IMG/VR virus record: IMGVR_UViG_3300009502_000132
Location: 1 to 33,636 of that record
DNA length: 33,636 nucleotides
From: a virus
Reading direction: 5' to 3' (one strand)
Below are positions 7,296 to 20,253 of the stretch, in pieces. The position numbers and the translations under genes are program-made. Within the stretch, counting starts at the first letter, position 1. The number at the start of each line of letters is the position of its first letter. Below the pieces are notes generated by a model. That model searched no databases. It was not told where the DNA came from and worked only from the letters and a program-made list of their open reading frames with translations.

Positions 7296-9065
7296 ATGGA
7301 TTCGATTGAATTCCTGAATGCGATCTTCGGAGACGCGATCGGCGACAGCCGCAACCTGGTCCTGTGGTCCTATCCCGATCGCCACACGGAGCAGTTCACT
7401 GACGTCGCCAAGGCTGTCCAGTACGCCGGAAAGCGAGCCAAGGACACGAACATCTATTTCGGCCTGTCCCTGGTCAAGGGCGTCACCGAGGGCCGCGGCA
7501 AGTACGAGCACGCCGCTGCGATCGGATGCGTGTGGGCCGACATCGACATCGCCGGGCCCATCCACGACAAGAACAAGAAGGCCCCGCCGGATCTTCGGGC
7601 CGCGCAGGCGATCCTGGACCGCGTAGGGCTCAAGCCGTCGATCACCGTCCACAGCGGCTACGGGCTGCACTGCTACTGGCTCCTGAAGGAACCGTGGGTC
7701 TTCGAGAATGAGGGCGACAAGACCGACGCCGCGGCCCTGGCCATCCGCTGGCACGCGACAGTCTGTGCGATCGCCGGAACGATGGGCTGGCACCTGGAGA
7801 ACCTGGGCGACCTGACCCGCGTGCTGCGCGTGCCGGGCACGTTCAACCATAAGGACCCCGAGCACGTCGCCGAAGTGCGGATCCTCGAGGCGCCGGGCCT
7901 CCGCTACGCGCAGGACGATTTCGACCCGTTCCTGATCGCCCCGGAGTTCGTCGAGGACAAGGCCGGCCGCGGCAAGCTGGATTTCTCGACGGTGCAGGTC
8001 GGGGCCGTCACCCTCGACGCGGCCGCGGAGCCGCCGGCCCTGAAGCTTTTGGCGCTGCTCGAGAACGACATCAAGTTCCGCCGCGCGTGGAAACGCAACC
8101 GTCCGGACCTGCAGGACCAGTCGGCCAGCTCGTATGACATGAGCCTGGCCAACCTGGCCGTCCTGGCCGGGTGGTTGGATCAGGAGATCGCCAACCTGCT
8201 GATCGCCTGGCGCCGCGAGAACAAGGAGGACCTGGCCAAGGCGATGCGCCGCGACTACATCATGCGGACGATCGCCAAGGCCAAGGCGCCTGCCGCTGCC
8301 GGCAATACGCTGGCGGACCTGGCAAAAGAGGCGGAAGAGGCCGCGGCGATCGCGACGGCCGCGAAGAAGGCCGAAGATCCCGCCACGACTACGGAGGCGG
8401 TCGATCCAGAGCGACGGAAGAAGATCTTCGCCGAACTGTCCAAGCGGCTGGGCATCCCGATCGCGCGATGGATCCAGCACGGGGCGGAGAACGCCCGCTA
8501 CAGCCTGGAGCTGTCGGACGGCCGCACCGTCCGGATCGGCGGCGTCGACCAGGTGCTGTCGGCCGACAAGTTCCGCAACAAGGTCTACGAAGCCACCGGG
8601 CGGCTGATCCCCGCCATGAAGCGGGACACGTGGGACGATGTCGCCCGCTGTCTGTCGGCCTGCAAGGAGACCGTCGAGAACGCCGAGACCACCAGCGGGT
8701 ACCAGGCGATGCTCTGGGTCGGGTCGTACCTGAGCGATCACCCCCTGGTCGCCAACCAGGAGTGGCAGGAGGCGGCGTCGAACAGCCAGCCCTTTCTGAA
8801 GGAGGGGAAGATCCACGTGCATGCCCAGGAACTTCGCAAGCACATGCGGGTGCTGCAGCACGAGACGCAGATCAACCACACCGAGCTGTGCGATGCCCTG
8901 AGGGTCTGCGGGTACGTCCGCGAGGATATCTCGTTCCGGCATGAAGGGGAAGTGTACCGCCGATCCTTCTGGTCGATCGGCAGTGCCCTGGCGATCGCGT
9001 CGGGCATTCTCAGGGACAAGGCCAAAGCGCCCAAGGCGCCGGCAGCGGCGGAGGTGCCCGTATGA
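7296..9065 (+). CDS. Archaeo-eukaryotic-type (RepB-like) DNA primase, 589 aa
   Basis: The N-terminal part matches the catalytic domain of the archaeo-eukaryotic primase superfamily as found in phages and plasmids (RepB-like primases). A metal-binding Asp-x-Asp pair lies in VWADIDIAG (Asp82, Asp84), the SGYGLHCYW motif follows (His125), and TRVLRVPGTFNHK completes the third motif at about 172-184. These enzymes make RNA or DNA primers and may also extend them. From about residue 260 the sequence turns helical, consistent with a PriCT-like accessory region, followed by an Ala/Lys-rich linker and a C-terminal domain of about 200 residues that I cannot assign. No fused helicase is seen; a separate UvrD-type helicase lies downstream. 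The start has only a weak ribosome binding site. Confidence 0.8.
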   Translation: MDSIEFLNAIFGDAIGDSRNLVLWSYPDRHTEQFTDVAKAVQYAGKRAKDTNIYFGLSLVKGVTEGRGKYEHAAAIGCVWADIDIAGPIHDKNKKAPPDLRAAQAILDRVGLKPSITVHSGYGLHCYWLLKEPWVFENEGDKTDAAALAIRWHATVCAIAGTMGWHLENLGDLTRVLRVPGTFNHKDPEHVAEVRILEAPGLRYAQDDFDPFLIAPEFVEDKAGRGKLDFSTVQVGAVTLDAAAEPPALKLLALLENDIKFRRAWKRNRPDLQDQSASSYDMSLANLAVLAGWLDQEIANLLIAWRRENKEDLAKAMRRDYIMRTIAKAKAPAAAGNTLADLAKEAEEAAAIATAAKKAEDPATTTEAVDPERRKKIFAELSKRLGIPIARWIQHGAENARYSLELSDGRTVRIGGVDQVLSADKFRNKVYEATGRLIPAMKRDTWDDVARCLSACKETVENAETTSGYQAMLWVGSYLSDHPLVANQEWQEAASNSQPFLKEGKIHVHAQELRKHMRVLQHETQINHTELCDALRVCGYVREDISFRHEGEVYRRSFWSIGSALAIASGILRDKAKAPKAPAAAEVPV

Positions 9066-9547
9066 GCCGAAAGCGCATCAAGCCAATCAATCGCGCCCGA
9101 ACCAGCGGCATAGCAAAGGTCTGCCGGGTCTGCGGAGTGGCCTACTTCGCGCCATCCTGGAAGCCCAAGTCGAAGTATTGCTCCGCAACTTGTCGGCAGA
9201 AAGGCAATCGGCATGCACCAGCAAGAACCCATTACGACGACTCCGTTCGTGGGACAGGTTCACGCGGCTACGTGAAATGGCATGGTCGTCACCAGCATCA
9301 TCGCGTAGTGGCCGAACAGATGATCGGCAGGCTGTTGCATCCGGGTGAAATCGTTCACCACAAGAACGGCGACAAGCACGACAATCGGCCAGAGAACTTG
9401 GAGGTCAACACGCAATCGAATCACTGTCGGGGACACGCCACGAAGAACCGGCGATGCACGGTTCCTGGCTGCAACCGCAAGCACTACGGGCATGGCTTGT
9501 GTTCGATGCACCATCAGAGAAAGGCGAAGGGGGGTGATGCGGAATGA
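9062..9547 (+). CDS. Free-standing HNH homing endonuclease (161 aa)
   Basis: The central part is an HNH_3-type nuclease: HHRVVAEQMIGRLL, then IVHHKNGDKHDNRPENLEV, with the paired His residues and Asn of the beta-beta-alpha metal site. An N-terminal zinc finger (CRVCGVAYF, then YCSATCRQKG) and a C-terminal CTVPGCNRKHYGHGLCSMHH cluster probably contact DNA. Such free-standing endonucleases cut related phage genomes and spread by repair. Its ATG overlaps the primase stop, and it overlaps the helicase gene, so it sits neatly in the operon. It is less GC-rich than its neighbours, in keeping with transfer. Its modules resemble those of the HNH protein nested in the terminase intein, in a different order. 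Confidence 0.85.
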   Translation: MSRKRIKPINRARTSGIAKVCRVCGVAYFAPSWKPKSKYCSATCRQKGNRHAPARTHYDDSVRGTGSRGYVKWHGRHQHHRVVAEQMIGRLLHPGEIVHHKNGDKHDNRPENLEVNTQSNHCRGHATKNRRCTVPGCNRKHYGHGLCSMHHQRKAKGGDAE

Positions 9548-11273
9548 CGGCGGACAATACGACAGAATCAGGAACTTACGTGATCGTGGGTCCGCCGGGT
9601 TGAGCACCGGCAAGACCACAGAATTAGCCCGCAAGGTCCGGGATTTCATAACCTGGGCGCGGGTCTATCACCTCGAGGAGCACCGGCCGGTGCTGCTGTG
9701 CTCCCTGACCCGGACGGCCGCGGCGGAGATCGCGGGCAGAGACCTGCCGCTGCCGCGGGAGTGCGTGGGCACGCTCCACAGCCATGCCTACCGATCGCTG
9801 GGCTGTCCCCCGGTGGCCGAATCGCAGGTCGAGGATTTCAACAAGGCAAATCCCGCCTACCGGCTGTCGGGCGCGGAGGTCGATACCGAGAACCCCGAAT
9901 GGGACCGCCGCTGCGGGACGCCGGGCGATGAGATGGCCAACGAGTATCACCTGCTCCGGGCGCGGATGGTGGATCATCGGATATGGCCATCGGCCGTCGT
10001 TTCGTTCGCCAAGAAGTGGGAGAGCTGGAAGGCCGGCTCCGGCACGATCGATTTCACCGACATGATCGAACTGGCCCTCCGCGACGTCGAGGTGGGGCCC
10101 GGCGGGCCGCGGATCCTCATCGCGGACGAGGCGCAGGACCTGTCGGCCCTGGAGTACTCGCTGCTGAGGAAGTGGGGGACGGCCGCGGGCAATCTCATCA
10201 TCACCGGCGACCCGTATCAGGCCCTCTACACCTGGCGCGGGGCCCATCCCGAGATGTTCCTCGACCCCGACGTGCCGGCGGACCGCAAGCGGGTCCTGGG
10301 CCAGTCGTGGCGCGTGCCCCGTGCCGTCCACAAGGCGGCGATGGCGTGGGTGAGGCAGCTCAGCAACTATCAGCCGCTGGACTACCAGCCGAGGGACTTC
10401 GAAGGGCAGGTGTCGGGCTGCAACGCGACTTGGAAGGCGCCGGACGCGATGCTGGACCTGGCGGAGCGGCACCTGGCCGCCGGCAAGAGCGTGATGATCC
10501 AGGCGAGCTGCTCGTTCTTCCTCTTCCCGCTCCTGACGGCCTGCCGCAAACGCGGCCTGCCGTTCGCCAACCCGTGGCGGTACAAGCGGGGCGACTGGAA
10601 CCCCCTGGGCGGGCGGGGCGTCACCATGGCCCGGCGGATCGGCGCGTTTCTCCGGGCCGACTCGGGGACGCACGGCGCGGACGCCCGCTCCTGGACGCCG
10701 GCGGAATTGCACCATTGGGCCGATGTCTTGCAAGCCAGGGGGTTGTTCATTCACGGGGCCAAGCAATTGTTGCAGGAATGGGCGGATTCTTGCACGGCCG
10801 ATCCCGAGGCCCAGGGCCTGCCGATCGGCGACTGGGAGTGCCTGTACGACTATTTTGAACAGGCCCCGCTGTCGGATCTGTATGAAATGCTCCGCCTCCG
10901 AGAGCAGGGCGATGAGAACACGGGCATGGACCGCCTGCTGGCCTGGTGGATCTCCCGCCTGATCCCGGCCAAGGCCAAGGCGGCGGGCTTCCCGGCCGCG
11001 GTGGCGATCGCACGGGGGGCGAAGGCCCTGGAGGATCCGCCGCGATTATTCGTTGGGACTACGCACAGCTTCAAGGGCGCCGAAGCGGACGTGACCATGA
11101 TAATTCCGGACCTGTCCCCCAGCGGCTACCGCGAGTGGCTCCGGCGGGGCGAGCCGCGCGACAGCATCGTCCGCATGGGCTACGTGGCTATCACGCGGGC
11201 TCGGGAGAGCGTCATCTTTTGCCAACCGACAACGGAGCAGGCGATGCGGTTCAGCAACCTGCAGGAGAACTGA
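9544..11273 (+). CDS. UvrD/Rep-type superfamily 1 helicase with reading frame broken at the P-loop
   Basis: From 9605 onward one frame encodes a UvrD-like helicase: P-loop end TGKTTELARKV, Walker B ADEAQD, GDPYQALYTWRGA (motif III), QSWRVP (motif IV), THSFKGAEAD (motif V) and YVAITRARE (motif VI). The expected start, ATG 9544 (ATGA overlap), encodes 19 residues ending YVIVGPPG and then TGA at 9601. Without the five bases 9601-9605 the frames join as GPPGTGKTTEL, a perfect Walker A. The downstream frame is also open upstream (ATG 9537) and reads AGLSTGKT, which still fits the loose [AG]xxxxGK[ST] pattern. So the gene is a frameshift mutant, an assembly error, or a version using the alternative N-terminus. 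It probably unwinds DNA in phage replication or repair. Confidence 0.75.
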
Positions 11274-16851: not shown

Positions 16852-17095
16852 TCGAGCCGAAGGGCTGGAGGTCGCGCTCTTTTCGACCGACGCCCTGACG
16901 CACGAGCTTCTCTCCCGTTTCGACCACGCCGGCTTCATCGGCATGCGCGTGCAGGTGACTCCCGAGACCCACCAGTTCATGCGGAAGTGGAAGGGCAACA
17001 CGCACCAGGTGGTCGGGCTCCTTGCCGATCTGCAGTTCACGCTGATCGACGCTTCGAAGGAAAACGAGACCGTCGTCGAGGAGGATCCCAAGTGA
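16790..17095 (+). CDS. Hypothetical protein between the terminase genes (101 aa)
   Basis: The ATG lies inside the small-terminase gene and the stop overlaps the large-terminase GTG. The N-terminal part is helical (RELLKELLTRTDRAEGLEVA), the middle is FDHAGFIGMRVQ, and the C-terminus is acidic. It may be a terminase accessory protein; no family is recognised. The long overlap with the upstream gene is unusual but keeps both frames open. Confidence 0.55.
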   Translation: MTELKNIPTRELLKELLTRTDRAEGLEVALFSTDALTHELLSRFDHAGFIGMRVQVTPETHQFMRKWKGNTHQVVGLLADLQFTLIDASKENETVVEEDPK

Positions 17096-19437
17096 CGGAG
17101 ATCCTCACGCAACGCGATGTGGGGACTGTCCGCGGCGAACCGCCCTGGCGCCCGATCCTGAAGCAGAAGCTCCTGGAGCGATGCGACAAGCGGTTCGTCG
17201 TCGTGCCCGCGGGCCGGCGATCGGGCAAGACGAAGATCGCCAAGCGGAAGCTCGTCAAGGCCGCGATCGGGGAGACAGACTGGGCGGACGCCAAGTTCTT
17301 CGCCGCGGCCCCGACGCGCGACCAGGCCAAGAAGATCTACTGGAAAGACCTCAAGCGGATGATCCCGCGCGAGCTGCTCGCGGGCGATCCGAAAGAGGCG
17401 GAGCTGATCATCCCGCTGTACAACGGGGCGGAGATCCACGTCATCGGGATGGACAAGCCCCAGCGCATGGAGGGCACGCCCTGGAACGGCGGCGTCCTGG
17501 ACGAGTACGGCAACATGCACCCCGAGGCGTGGGAAGAGAACGTCCGCCCGGCGCTCACCGATCGTCGGGCCTGGTGCTGGTTCATCGGCGTCCCCGAGGG
17601 CCGCAATCACTACCACGGCCTGTACACCAAGGCCAACCGCCTCGAGTACGCGGATGAATGGACTACGTTCACCTGGACGGCCGCGGAGGTCCTGCCGGCG
17701 TACCTGGGCCAGGCGGGCGCCAAGCTCGAGCTGGCGGCGGCGGCGCGGGACCTGGACCCGCTGTCGTACGCGCAGGAGTACGACGCCAGATTCGTCACGT
17801 TCGAGGGCCGCGCATACTACCCGTTCAAGATGGAGCGGCACGCGGCGCGGACACTGGCCTACGATTCGGAACGGGATCTGATCCTCTGCTTCGATTTCAA
17901 CAACGCCCCGGGCGTTGCCGTTGTCGCCCAGGAATTCGATCAGCCGGCGATCCAGCCGGTCGGGTGCATCATCCGGGACTACACGGGCGTGATCGGAGAG
18001 GTCTACATCCCGAAGAACTCGAACACGCCCGCCGTCTGCCGCAAGCTGATCGAACAGTGGAAGTCGCACACTGGGCGAGTGCTCTGCTACGGCGATGCCA
18101 CCGGCGGCGCCAAGGGCACGACGGCCGTCGAGGGAAGCGACTGGGACCTGATCAAGGCGAACCTTCGGCCCGTGTTCGGCGATCGCCTGATCTTCAACGT
18201 GCCCGGCTGCAACCCGCGCGAACGCGCCCGCGTCAACGCGGTCAACAGCCGCCTGGAATCCGCCACCAACGAAGTGCGGCTGCTGGTGGACCCTTCGAAG
18301 GCCCCGATGACCGCGCACGACCTCGACAGTGTCGTGACGCTCAAGGGCGGATCGGGAGAGCTGGACAAGGACGCGGACAGCAGCCTTACACACCTTTGCT
18401 TCGCGGGCGACACGCTGGCCGACACGGACCATGGCTCCGTGGCGATGCGAGAGCTTCCGGCAAGCGGGCTGATTCGCACGTGGGACGGTTCGTTCGTCCC
18501 ATTCGCGAACCCAGGCATTCGAGGCCGGAAGAGGTCTGTGCGGATTTCGTTGTCGGATGGTACGTCTGTTGTCTGCACTCCCGATCATCGGTTCTTGACG
18601 GAAAAAGGTTGGATTGAAGCGAAGAATTTGCTTGGCTTGTCTTGTTGCACTTGGTTACTATATCAAAACCAATTGCGAAAGGGACAGGCATGGAAACAAC
18701 GGAATTCCTCGGGAAGAAGTATCACTGGGACGGCAAGTACTTCGTTCGCAACAAGAGCCGACTTCACCGCGTCGTGTGGGAACACCACAACGGGGCGATC
18801 CCTACGGGCAGCCAGATTCACCACGCCAACGGAGACCGGAGAGACAATCGCATTGAGAACCTCCAGTGCGAACAGCGATCAGACCATGCGAAGCTCCACA
18901 TGCGGAGCGACAAGCGTAAGGCGCAGTCTTCGGCGGCTCTCAAGCTTCCTCACGTTCGCAATGCCGCTGCTGCCTGGCATCACAGTGCGGCCGGCAGGAA
19001 GTGGCACCAGGAACACGCCAAGCGAACGCGGTTCGGGAAGGTCATGCCCTTCAAGCATTCCTGCCTGGTCTGCGGGAAACCTTTTGTCTCTGGGCGCAGA
19101 AGCAAGGCGGCTTTCTGCTCTCGGACATGTAAGGCAACGCATCGCCGACGAAGCGGTGTCGATAATGTCCCGGCCGTCTGTGCCTTCTGCGGGAAGCAAT
19201 TCGGCACGAACAAGTATCTGCGCCCCCAGAAATACTGCTCATGGGAGTGCTCCATTAAGGGTCGTAGCCGTAGATGACGCTGGCGTAGTTGACGTGTACT
19301 GCCCGACCGTTCCATCAACAGGCTGCTTCGCCTTGGCGAGCGGCCTGCTTGTTTGCAATTCGGACGGGCTGGGCTACTACATCGAAAAAGAGTTCCCCGT
19401 CAGCGGGGGGCACAAGACCGTTGTGCGTGCGATATGA
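17092..19437 (+). CDS. terL: Terminase large subunit precursor interrupted by an intein
   Basis: The precursor has 781 residues; removing the intein leaves 460, a normal size. It is the DNA-packaging motor ATPase and headful or cos nuclease. The ATPase shows Walker A GRRSGKT (41-47) and Walker B GGVLDEYG (Asp137, Glu138). The RNase H-like nuclease shows CFDFN (Asp268), YGDATGG (Asp335) and, across the splice, DSSLTHL plus SDGLGYYI with Asp758. The intein covers residues 436-756 and is followed by Ser757. The GTG start overlaps the previous stop (GTGA). Without splicing the protein would lack an intact nuclease site, so packaging would depend on splicing. Confidence 0.9.
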   Translation: MTEILTQRDVGTVRGEPPWRPILKQKLLERCDKRFVVVPAGRRSGKTKIAKRKLVKAAIGETDWADAKFFAAAPTRDQAKKIYWKDLKRMIPRELLAGDPKEAELIIPLYNGAEIHVIGMDKPQRMEGTPWNGGVLDEYGNMHPEAWEENVRPALTDRRAWCWFIGVPEGRNHYHGLYTKANRLEYADEWTTFTWTAAEVLPAYLGQAGAKLELAAAARDLDPLSYAQEYDARFVTFEGRAYYPFKMERHAARTLAYDSERDLILCFDFNNAPGVAVVAQEFDQPAIQPVGCIIRDYTGVIGEVYIPKNSNTPAVCRKLIEQWKSHTGRVLCYGDATGGAKGTTAVEGSDWDLIKANLRPVFGDRLIFNVPGCNPRERARVNAVNSRLESATNEVRLLVDPSKAPMTAHDLDSVVTLKGGSGELDKDADSSLTHLCFAGDTLADTDHGSVAMRELPASGLIRTWDGSFVPFANPGIRGRKRSVRISLSDGTSVVCTPDHRFLTEKGWIEAKNLLGLSCCTWLLYQNQLRKGQAWKQRNSSGRSITGTASTSFATRADFTASCGNTTTGRSLRAARFTTPTETGETIALRTSSANSDQTMRSSTCGATSVRRSLRRLSSFLTFAMPLLPGITVRPAGSGTRNTPSERGSGRSCPSSIPAWSAGNLLSLGAEARRLSALGHVRQRIADEAVSIMSRPSVPSAGSNSARTSICAPRNTAHGSAPLRVVAVDDAGVVDVYCPTVPSTGCFALASGLLVCNSDGLGYYIEKEFPVSGGHKTVVRAI
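18397..19359 (+). mobile_element. Intein in the terminase large subunit (321 aa), with an out-of-frame HNH gene inside
   Basis: The N-terminal splicing block begins with Cys1 in CFAGDTLADTDHG; block B is CTPDHRFLTEKGWIEAKNL with the Thr-x-x-His (intein positions 61-64). Block F reads VVDVYCPTVPSTGCFALASG, and the intein ends in LLVCN before the Ser of the host protein. The usual penultimate His is Cys here, and the block F His is Cys too, which is a known but uncommon variation. The middle, roughly 18610-19270 in the intein frame, is a Ser/Thr/Arg-rich low-complexity stretch with no endonuclease motif, because that DNA encodes an HNH protein in another frame. Splicing inserts nothing and restores the terminase nuclease motif. 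Confidence 0.85.
18690..19277 (+). CDS. HNH homing endonuclease nested out of frame in the intein (195 aa)
   Basis: ATG 18690 has its own ribosome binding site (AAAGGG, six bases before). The protein has an HNH_3-type core: RLHRVVWEHHNGAIPTGSQ, IHHANGDRRDNRIENLQ. Two zinc fingers follow: CLVCGKPF with FCSRTCKATHRRR, and CAFCGKQF with YCSWECSIKGRSR. It ends in the middle of intein block F, whose first residues (RVVAVDD) are encoded by the same bases. The DNA before it (18610-18690) is AT-rich compared with its surroundings, a mark of insertion. It likely cleaves intein-less terminase genes and so spreads the intein. An upstream in-frame ATG at 18642 is possible but has no ribosome binding site. 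Confidence 0.85.
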   Translation: METTEFLGKKYHWDGKYFVRNKSRLHRVVWEHHNGAIPTGSQIHHANGDRRDNRIENLQCEQRSDHAKLHMRSDKRKAQSSAALKLPHVRNAAAAWHHSAAGRKWHQEHAKRTRFGKVMPFKHSCLVCGKPFVSGRRSKAAFCSRTCKATHRRRSGVDNVPAVCAFCGKQFGTNKYLRPQKYCSWECSIKGRSRR

Positions 19438-19450
19438 CGAGGACCTGAAA

Positions 19451-19750
19451 ATGCCGGCATGGCTTGAAATTCTGTTGGCGGTGGCGGGAACACTGAACCT
19501 GGTCGGGTTCATCGTCTGGATCATCAAGACGCTGTTCGAGCTCAAGGGCAGGCTGGACCTGATCGAGGCCTCGCTCGCGGGCATCAAGAACACCTGCGAA
19601 GTGAGCATCAACCGCGTAATGGCGGAATGCAAGTTCTGCGACGCCGACAAGCGGGAGATGTTCAACACGCTCAAGCGACTGGATCGCGTGAACGTGGCCG
19701 TCGCGACGAAGATGGGCATCGACCTGAGCGAATTCAACACGGGCGTCTAG
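19451..19750 (+). CDS. Small membrane-anchored coiled-coil protein (99 aa)
   Basis: The first 28 residues form one strong membrane helix (WLEILLAVAGTLNLVGFIVW, then IIKTLFEL), followed by a helical segment (GRLDLIEASLAGIKNTCEVS) and a cysteine pair ECKFCDAD. The topology suits a holin- or anchor-like protein of a lysis region, but no family can be named. The ATG at 19451 has GAGG eight bases upstream, lying just after the terminase stop. Confidence 0.6.
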   Translation: MPAWLEILLAVAGTLNLVGFIVWIIKTLFELKGRLDLIEASLAGIKNTCEVSINRVMAECKFCDADKREMFNTLKRLDRVNVAVATKMGIDLSEFNTGV

Positions 19751-19770
19751 GCGTCCGGAAAGGAACTGCA

Positions 19771-20253
19771 ATGGGCAAAGTGAACGAGAGAGTGAGAATC
19801 CGGGTCGCGCCGATCGCGATCCTGATGCTGGGCCTGGCCGCGATCGTCGGTATCGCCCTGATGAGCGGCTGCAGCGGAGTCCAGGCCAAGGGCGACGTGT
19901 CCGCCGCGATCGATCAGCGGGCGACGGTGGCCGCGGGACAGCAGGCCTCCGCACAGGCCGGCACGCTGACGCCCGACGCCATGCGGCAGGTCCTGAAGGA
20001 GAACGCCACGGTCTACGGGGCCTGGTCCGCGGGCAAGACGGTCAGCGTTTTCAGCTACTGGTTCGGCAAGTCGACGCTCTACGTCAACGGCGACTATGCC
20101 GCGCGGATCGACAAGGACAACCTGCTGCTCCAGGAGGTCTCTTCGCGGGCCGCGACGATCGACCCGGCGAACTTAGCCGCGTTTGTGATCCGGGAGGCGA
20201 ATTGCTTCCTGGACCTTAAGCGGGCCAAGGACGGCGAGAAGACGCCGCCTTGA
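19771..20253 (+). CDS. Probable lipoprotein (160 aa)
   Basis: A basic N-terminus is followed by a hydrophobic segment (APIAILMLGLAAIVGIALMS) and then GCSG, a near-canonical lipobox with Cys35 as the likely lipidated residue. The rest is a soluble, Gln/Ala-rich and then mixed domain (VYGAWSAGKTVSVFSYWFG). Phage lipoproteins near lysis genes can be outer spanins or superinfection-exclusion proteins; neither can be shown here. The ribosome binding site AAGGA is well spaced. Confidence 0.6.
   Translation: MGKVNERVRIRVAPIAILMLGLAAIVGIALMSGCSGVQAKGDVSAAIDQRATVAAGQQASAQAGTLTPDAMRQVLKENATVYGAWSAGKTVSVFSYWFGKSTLYVNGDYAARIDKDNLLLQEVSSRAATIDPANLAAFVIREANCFLDLKRAKDGEKTPP

Follow-up and report, generated by a model that had tools for sequence, protein, structure and literature searches.

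An HNH endonuclease gene nested out of frame in a putative intein of a phage terminase gene, and its relatives among viral contigs

The locus and its features

The DNA considered here, positions 1 to 33,636 of the IMG/VR virus record IMGVR_UViG_3300009502_000132 (this whole stretch is called the window), is a phage contig of 33.6 kb that encodes a polymerase, a helicase, a terminase, a portal protein, and major head and tail proteins. Its gene for the large terminase subunit, terL (product TerL), carries an insertion that can be read in one frame as an intein and, over much of its length, in another frame as the gene of an HNH endonuclease. terL begins with GTG at 17092, with the Shine-Dalgarno (SD) sequence GAGGAGG upstream, and is one open frame, 17092-19434, across the insertion, closed by TGA at 19435-19437; Terminase_6N of Pfam matches the part preceding the insertion (E=2.6e-4). 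The insertion itself, 18397-19359, of 963 bp, runs from a Cys codon (TGC 18397) to an Asn codon (AAT 19357-19359), with Ser at the +1 position. A preliminary description of this DNA had named an intein frame open over the entire insertion, with splicing blocks at both ends, and an HNH gene in a different frame within it. All of its coordinates were confirmed, the HNH protein being recognised by PF13392 (HNH_3) with E=1.7e-17. Relative to the HNH frame the intein frame is offset by +1 (HNH+1), and in the window it is stop-free through the HNH gene. The features of the locus, with lengths in amino acids (aa) and the predicted local distance difference test (pLDDT) as the measure of model confidence, are as follows.

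17092..18396, + strand: TerL N-extein, 435 aa, GTG start; comprises the ATPase domain and the greater part of the nuclease domain
18397..18681, + strand: N-terminal splicing domain of the intein (IntN), about 95 aa, with Cys1 and block B TPDH, located by the N profile; pLDDT 84-98 for residues 1-90
18615..18617, + strand: TGA stop in the HNH frame, 5' of the HNH start, between IntN block B and the HNH ATG
18678..18684, + strand: SD-like AAAGGGA ahead of the HNH ATG; a weak match, many relatives having a better one
18690..19277, + strand: HNH endonuclease gene, out of frame, 195 aa, ATG to TGA; HNH_3 domain
18697..19239, + strand: the same DNA in the intein frame; Ser/Thr/Arg-rich linker, predicted to be disordered, unconserved except for being stop-free
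19255..19359, + strand: C-terminal splicing domain of the intein (IntC), located by the C profile; block F VYCPTV, block G LLVCN
19360..19434, + strand: TerL C-extein, Ser+1 and then SDGLGYYIEKEF...; end of the nuclease domain; the joined flanks align gap-free to the viral contig L307

The insertion as a predicted mini-intein

The residues that mark a class 1 intein are present (C1, T61-P-D-H64, N321 and Ser+1). The insertion begins with Cys, contains the block B sequence 'VVCTPDHRFL' and ends with 'VYCPTVPSTGCFALASGLLVCN|S' ('LLVCN|S'); across the related insertions Cys1, the block B His and the terminal Asn are invariant. Among library profiles, Intein_splicing of Pfam (E=9.4e-4) and TIGR01445 of NCBIfam (E=2.4e-4) match IntN alone and fall short of their curated cut-offs, for which reason N and C intein profiles were built for this analysis and a fold comparison was added. 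The protein of the intein frame was modelled with AlphaFold2 on an alignment of 39 related insertions. Apart from the N-terminal 90 residues, pLDDT reaches 77 for residues 281-290 and 90-98 for residues 291-321, while residues 101-280, which lie under the HNH gene, have values of about 37-54 and no secondary structure. In the model the confident ends form together a single Hint domain. The top PDB matches in Foldseek are all inteins, gp41-1 being the best, followed by Ssp DnaB and Mch/Msm DnaB, and superposition on the NpuDnaE intein (Z 19.1, 126 residues, root-mean-square deviation 1.5) spans residues 1 to 321 of the model. Because the two ends alone are predicted to make a complete Hint fold and the linker under the HNH gene appears disordered, the insertion is, by this model, a mini-intein with a disordered linker where the endonuclease domain would sit. 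The modelled strand 287-301 starts at nucleotide 19255 and the HNH gene ends at 19277, so that IntC overlaps the 3' end of the HNH gene by about 22 nt; the sharing of bases between the HNH end and block F had likewise been noticed in the preliminary description.

The insertion site can be judged from uninterrupted homologues of this TerL, which are 59% and 80% identical to it. The latter, encoded by the viral contig L307, is without the insertion; once the flanks of the window are joined, its DNA aligns with them gap-free over 378 nt, the junction '...ADSSLTHL|SDGLGYY...' of the window being aligned to '...ADSSLSHLSDSVGYY...' of L307. This comparison with an intein-less terminase, which the preliminary description had proposed, means that the insertion is exact and in frame and has caused no target duplication. 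After splicing, TerL would have 435+25 = 460 aa, as computed from the coordinates.

The nested HNH gene and its putative expression

The HNH protein carries, besides the HNH_3 domain, two CxxC...CxxxC zinc-finger-like motifs, and the H, N and zinc-ligand Cys columns are invariant among its relatives; a PDB sequence search with it returned no informative relative. The TGA at 18615-18617 closes the HNH frame upstream, which makes in-frame entry into the HNH gene from upstream impossible. The expression statistics are based on the 53 nested loci that came from the first scan described below; in these, too, the HNH frame is closed upstream, mostly near the end of IntN. An SD-like match of at least 4 bases precedes 35 of the 53 nested HNH starts and 81 of the 529 background ATGs, the former figure being somewhat inflated by the choice of the best start for each nested HNH gene. 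These features make internal initiation the likely route of HNH translation. The ribosome binding site attributed earlier to the HNH gene of the window is present as an SD-like sequence, a weak one.

Relatives and their layouts

Among annotated phages, tblastn revealed the same layout in Tetrasphaera phage TJE1, Acinetobacter phage Highwayman and Rhodobacteraceae phage LS06-2018-MD07. IMG/VR was scanned four times with HNH alignments, yielding 297 loci in 170 clusters at 90% DNA identity, and the layouts were sorted by placing the N and C intein profiles on the three frames of each locus. In 111 of the 170 clusters, called nested, both IntN and IntC lie in HNH+1 with no stop between them, and in two, L289 and L299, both lie in HNH+2, also with no stop. 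Another 27 clusters are fractured, that is, the halves are separated by stops or occupy different frames; 22 are without intein blocks and eight are cut or partial. An open intein with the HNH gene in frame was found in none of the 170 clusters, which include 113 open inteins. The arrangement that had been presented as a single case is therefore real and not a one-off, since it recurs in 113 clusters or more, of which two have the other phase. Profiles of the upstream sequences name the terminase large subunit as the host gene, with TerL families at the top of the table, and in most cases the junctions read DH|C...N|CxDAxRY or lie a few residues off, close to the final acidic motif of the TerL nuclease domain. 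The GC content of the nested clusters ranges from 0.28 to 0.69. A scan of sequenced bacterial genome contigs with a single HNH protein gave 19 pattern matches and no relatives. In the two clusters of the other phase (L289: 2751-3593; L299: 2730-3602) the stop-free intein frame is HNH+2, HNH+1 carries 8-10 stops, and the HNH protein is without the last zinc-finger motif.

The fractured clusters (L086, L014, L035, L040, L191, L186, L286 and 20 others) begin with TerL-N/IntN, continue with a free HNH gene and end with IntC/TerL-C, which has a separate start. A candidate start for the half comprising IntC and the C-extein is present in 27 of 27; in 26 of these it has an SD-like match of at least 4 bases, a count that stands without a background rate, and it often overlaps the HNH stop. 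Lactobacillus phage CL2 is an annotated example; in the annotated record NC_028835 (L005) the parts lie at 506-1954, 1967-2590 and about 2613-2770. Judged by their sequences, the fractured clusters are likely to be split TerL inteins that splice in trans and have the endonuclease gene between their halves; they may be a source of new split inteins. The preliminary description had regarded relatives with stops in the intein frame as evidence against nesting. Such relatives do exist; in them terL is split up into distinct open frames, the C-terminal one having a start of its own, and for that reason they do not contradict the nested reading.

In Sphaerotilus phage SN1 and Pseudomonas phage FBPa53 the HNH gene stands free behind an uninterrupted terL with the EDHIGDAIRYR motif intact. 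One HNH family, then, is found free beside terL, between the halves of putative split inteins, and nested out of frame in contiguous terL inteins. In the HNH trees the layouts are clustered and the nested state needs 6 to 14 changes; the deep branches are weakly supported, and for this reason no number of origins is claimed.

Three other loci deserve mention. L003 (MW202478) has at about 2501-2900 a TerL mini-intein of ~140 aa at the same TerL site with no endonuclease, and is likely the empty state of the element. In L004 (Brochothrix phage BL3), 1936-2523, a TerL intein contains two in-frame stops, and of the HNH gene the zinc-finger tail alone is left, in another frame; it is apparently a decaying member, and the annotated TerL there is truncated. 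In L306 (Exiguobacterium phage vB_EauM-23), 568-2750, TerL runs to ...DKNNH and is followed by the HNH gene and then by ...CDATRYAMEMD; it is interrupted at the same codon, with neither intein blocks nor an Rfam intron match.

Stops in the shadow frame

Expected stop numbers were obtained by shuffling synonymous codons within each HNH gene, which preserves the protein and its codon usage. For the window alone 0.6 stops are expected and P(0)=0.47, so the open frame of a single case proves nothing. The family gives a different picture. In the 111 nested clusters HNH+1 contains 0 stops versus 194 expected, and the unused HNH+2 contains 1897 versus 1947 expected. In the two clusters of the other phase the relation is reversed, with 0 stops versus 20.4 expected in HNH+2 and 18 versus 19.5 in HNH+1. 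Where no intein frame crosses the HNH gene, HNH+1 is close to expectation: 140 stops versus 146.5 in the free-standing homologues and 165 versus 160 in the four fractured classes summed. The stop constraint tracks whichever frame the intein uses. The earlier claim that the nonsense must remain stop-free thus holds for the family and could not have been upheld from the window by itself.

The constraint concerns exactly three triplets. TAA, TAG and TGA occur 0, 0 and 0 times in the nested intein frame versus 54, 76 and 65 expected, and TAC, TAT, TGC, TGG and TGT are as frequent as expected or commoner. When nested loci are compared in pairs, divergence at the third codon positions of the HNH frame is about double that at the first and second, and the residues read in HNH+1 have an identity of 0.30 in nested versus 0.25 in fractured loci at equal HNH identity. 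The divergence check in both frames, suggested in the preliminary description, therefore shows a conserved HNH frame and unconserved linker residues, so that the intein frame is kept passable with no constraint on its sequence; with third positions so diverged, its openness is unlikely to be mere inheritance. Selection keeps three triplets out of the shadow frame and leaves its amino acids free. Few natural examples of overlapping coding are as clean as these loci, where one frame is meaningful, the other merely passable, and the difference directly measurable.

The mean number of stops in free-standing relatives is about 7 for HNH+1 and 20 for HNH+2, hence HNH+1 is the easier frame to clear. 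This, together with the stop that the HNH gene brings along, would account for the absence of in-frame cases and for the ratio of 111 to 2, to which common descent within the 111 contributes too.

Proposed mechanism and its alternatives

A complete HNH homing-endonuclease gene would have colonised, out of frame, a cis-splicing mini-intein located at the end of the TerL nuclease domain, at the position usual for an endonuclease. Ribosomes reading through terL would produce TerL(N)-IntN-nonsense linker-IntC-TerL(C); IntN and IntC would fold together, and the disordered linker would loop out and leave with the intein by protein splicing in cis, giving the 460-aa TerL. The HNH protein would be translated separately from its own start codon within the intein and would cut uninserted terL at or near the empty site, whereupon repair would copy intein and HNH gene jointly. 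As the inserted gene brings its own stop, an in-frame insertion would kill TerL, and the survivors would be out-of-frame insertions with a shadow frame that can be cleared. That an endonuclease gene invaded a mini-intein had already been supposed from the window, and it gains support from the Hint fold formed by the ends alone, from the free-standing relatives of the HNH gene, and from its own start and stop.

We hold it very probable that the HNH gene lies in a mini-intein, is translated on its own, has its nonsense linker spliced out in cis, and homes on empty terL. Splicing, independent translation, target cleavage and homing are what we infer from the sequences; the first, the separate synthesis of HNH and the last are strongly suggested. 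Presence and absence of the insertion between close relatives (L307) and the spread over divergent TerLs are consistent with homing. Median HNH and intein identity also exceeds TerL identity, some pairs having 58-62% identical HNH proteins and very different TerLs; this would be consistent with horizontal spread, and since the extein identities of remote TerLs rest on poor alignments, it is a soft argument for mobility, a hint at most. Several other points weigh against this interpretation. The penultimate intein residue is Cys where His is usual, the HNH gene of the window has a weak SD sequence, and 18 of the 53 nested HNH starts have no 4-base SD match. The nested count, nested being defined by zero stops, needs the stop numbers between the intein halves to be bimodal, which they are (0 versus 3 to 17). 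All searches were seeded by the HNH of the window, so that other host genes or nucleases would escape.

Of the alternatives, the one that survives best, unlikely as it is, takes the HNH protein for a packaging endonuclease working with TerL and its placement in the intein for a device of co-expression. HNH proteins encoded beside terminase genes are known to belong to packaging machines, as stated in a passage of PMC12613952 that cites Kala et al. 2014, and in both Sphaerotilus phage SN1 and Pseudomonas phage FBPa53 a member of this HNH family adjoins an intact terL. Such a role is difficult to reconcile with an intein that some close relatives possess and others, such as L307, lack, with a TerL of 80% identity that manages without an HNH gene at that place, and with insertion sites clustered on a single conserved terL motif. 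The HNH_3 domain with two zinc-finger-like motifs is, moreover, typical of free-standing phage homing endonucleases.

Improbable, to a greater degree, is the production of HNH as an IntN-HNH fusion through -1 ribosomal frameshifting in place of a start of its own. The geometry would permit it, because the intein frame is HNH+1, a -1 slip enters the HNH frame, and the HNH gene starts soon after IntN. Yet the TGA at 18615-18617 confines the slip to 18618-18690, where no clear slippery heptamer was found by eye; HNH starts are enriched in SD sequences, and the same slip would be unusable for the two HNH+2 lineages and for the fractured ones.

It is very improbable that the insertion is removed as RNA, by a group I or group II intron, its likeness to an intein and its open frame being incidental. 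Phage group I introns often carry HNH genes, and in Exiguobacterium phage vB_EauM-23 the HNH gene lies between terL halves devoid of intein blocks. Rfam, however, gave no match at E<=0.1 in window positions 17000-20000, and none in 19 related loci except a tRNA in L013, that is, no intron structure; an intron would also leave the intein fold with its invariant Cys1, block B His and terminal Asn unexplained and would have no need of a stop-free frame. Chance or an assembly artefact (a GC-rich open shadow frame, or an indel displacing an in-frame endonuclease), to which the value for the window alone gives some room, has next to no probability and is already refuted at family level by the 111 same-phase clusters of widely differing GC content without a single stop, and by the recurrence of the layout in independently assembled contigs and in annotated genomes such as those of Tetrasphaera phage TJE1 and Acinetobacter phage Highwayman.

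Comparison with known systems

Inteins are thought to gain mobility by in-frame fusion with an endonuclease. More than 100 lineages seem instead to park a complete gene inside the intein in another frame. Canonical large inteins (PI-SceI type and HNH inteins) share with the insertion of the window the Hint domain, the endonuclease between IntN and IntC, and an exact position within a conserved motif of an essential gene; their endonuclease is an in-frame domain, whereas the HNH gene of the window is offset, with its own start and an in-frame stop upstream. In fractured genes, which Dassa et al. reportedly described in 2009, split inteins of the gp41-1 and NrdJ-1 type are said to have a free-standing homing endonuclease gene between the halves. 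The stand-alone gene between IntN and IntC is a common trait, gp41-1 is the best Foldseek match, and the fractured layout, its C-terminal half with its own start, occurs in 27 relatives of the window HNH. In the window, unlike in fractured genes, terL is continuous through the HNH gene, splicing would be in cis and the DNA codes twice.

The nearest published case is the methylase of phage ShiLan, in which an HNH gene is hidden out of frame and the host frame is open (Arsenault, Gosselin and Gogarten 2025, PMC11855218). Both it and the window have a 195-aa HNH protein with zinc-finger motifs, encoded in another frame of an open host gene, and inspection of ShiLan gp65 (L319: 4786-7668) found the host frame to be HNH+1, the phase of the window. 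Its authors report neither intein nor intron splicing and expect that the methylase retains the nonsense (PMC11855218). Intein profiles placed on gp65 accordingly detected no blocks flanking the HNH gene, with weak matches at another, separate intein; that separate intein of the methylase is in frame. In the window, by contrast, the HNH gene is inside a recognisable intein with blocks and fold, the nonsense should be spliced from an essential protein, and host gene and insertion site are different. Novelty is limited in that similar inteins may be described in a 2025 preprint from the same group on actinophage inteins (Gosselin et al.), the title of which mentions non-canonical architecture. 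The mycobacteriophage inteins surveyed in 2016 also have the phage large terminase subunit as host, but lie in its ATPase domain (Kelley et al. 2016, PMC5050341), whereas this HNH family is found close to the final acidic motif of the nuclease domain.

As far as the compared sequences indicate, the arrangement is real, selected and largely overlooked, with more than 100 viral lineages keeping both readings intact. A wider interpretation, towards which we lean with less assurance than towards the mechanism proposed for the window, is that these loci represent a widespread, undescribed class of phage inteins with an independent out-of-frame homing-endonuclease gene, a shadow frame kept only against stops, and nonsense that is made and spliced away; they would interconvert with fractured genes through gain and loss of stops, offering a route between split and contiguous inteins. 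Such a class would link the two kinds of intein. It would explain the way in which a free-standing homing endonuclease settles in an intein and yet spares the host protein, and it suggests a reason for the lack of in-frame insertions and for the almost exclusive use of one phase. Many annotations of phage terminase inteins and genes are likely wrong, the HNH gene having been missed or the terminase truncated.

Another HNH_3 gene of the window (E=1.9e-11) lies at 9062-9547 and shares about 200 nt with the beginning of the helicase frame 9345-11273; its relationship to the nested gene is weak (30%).

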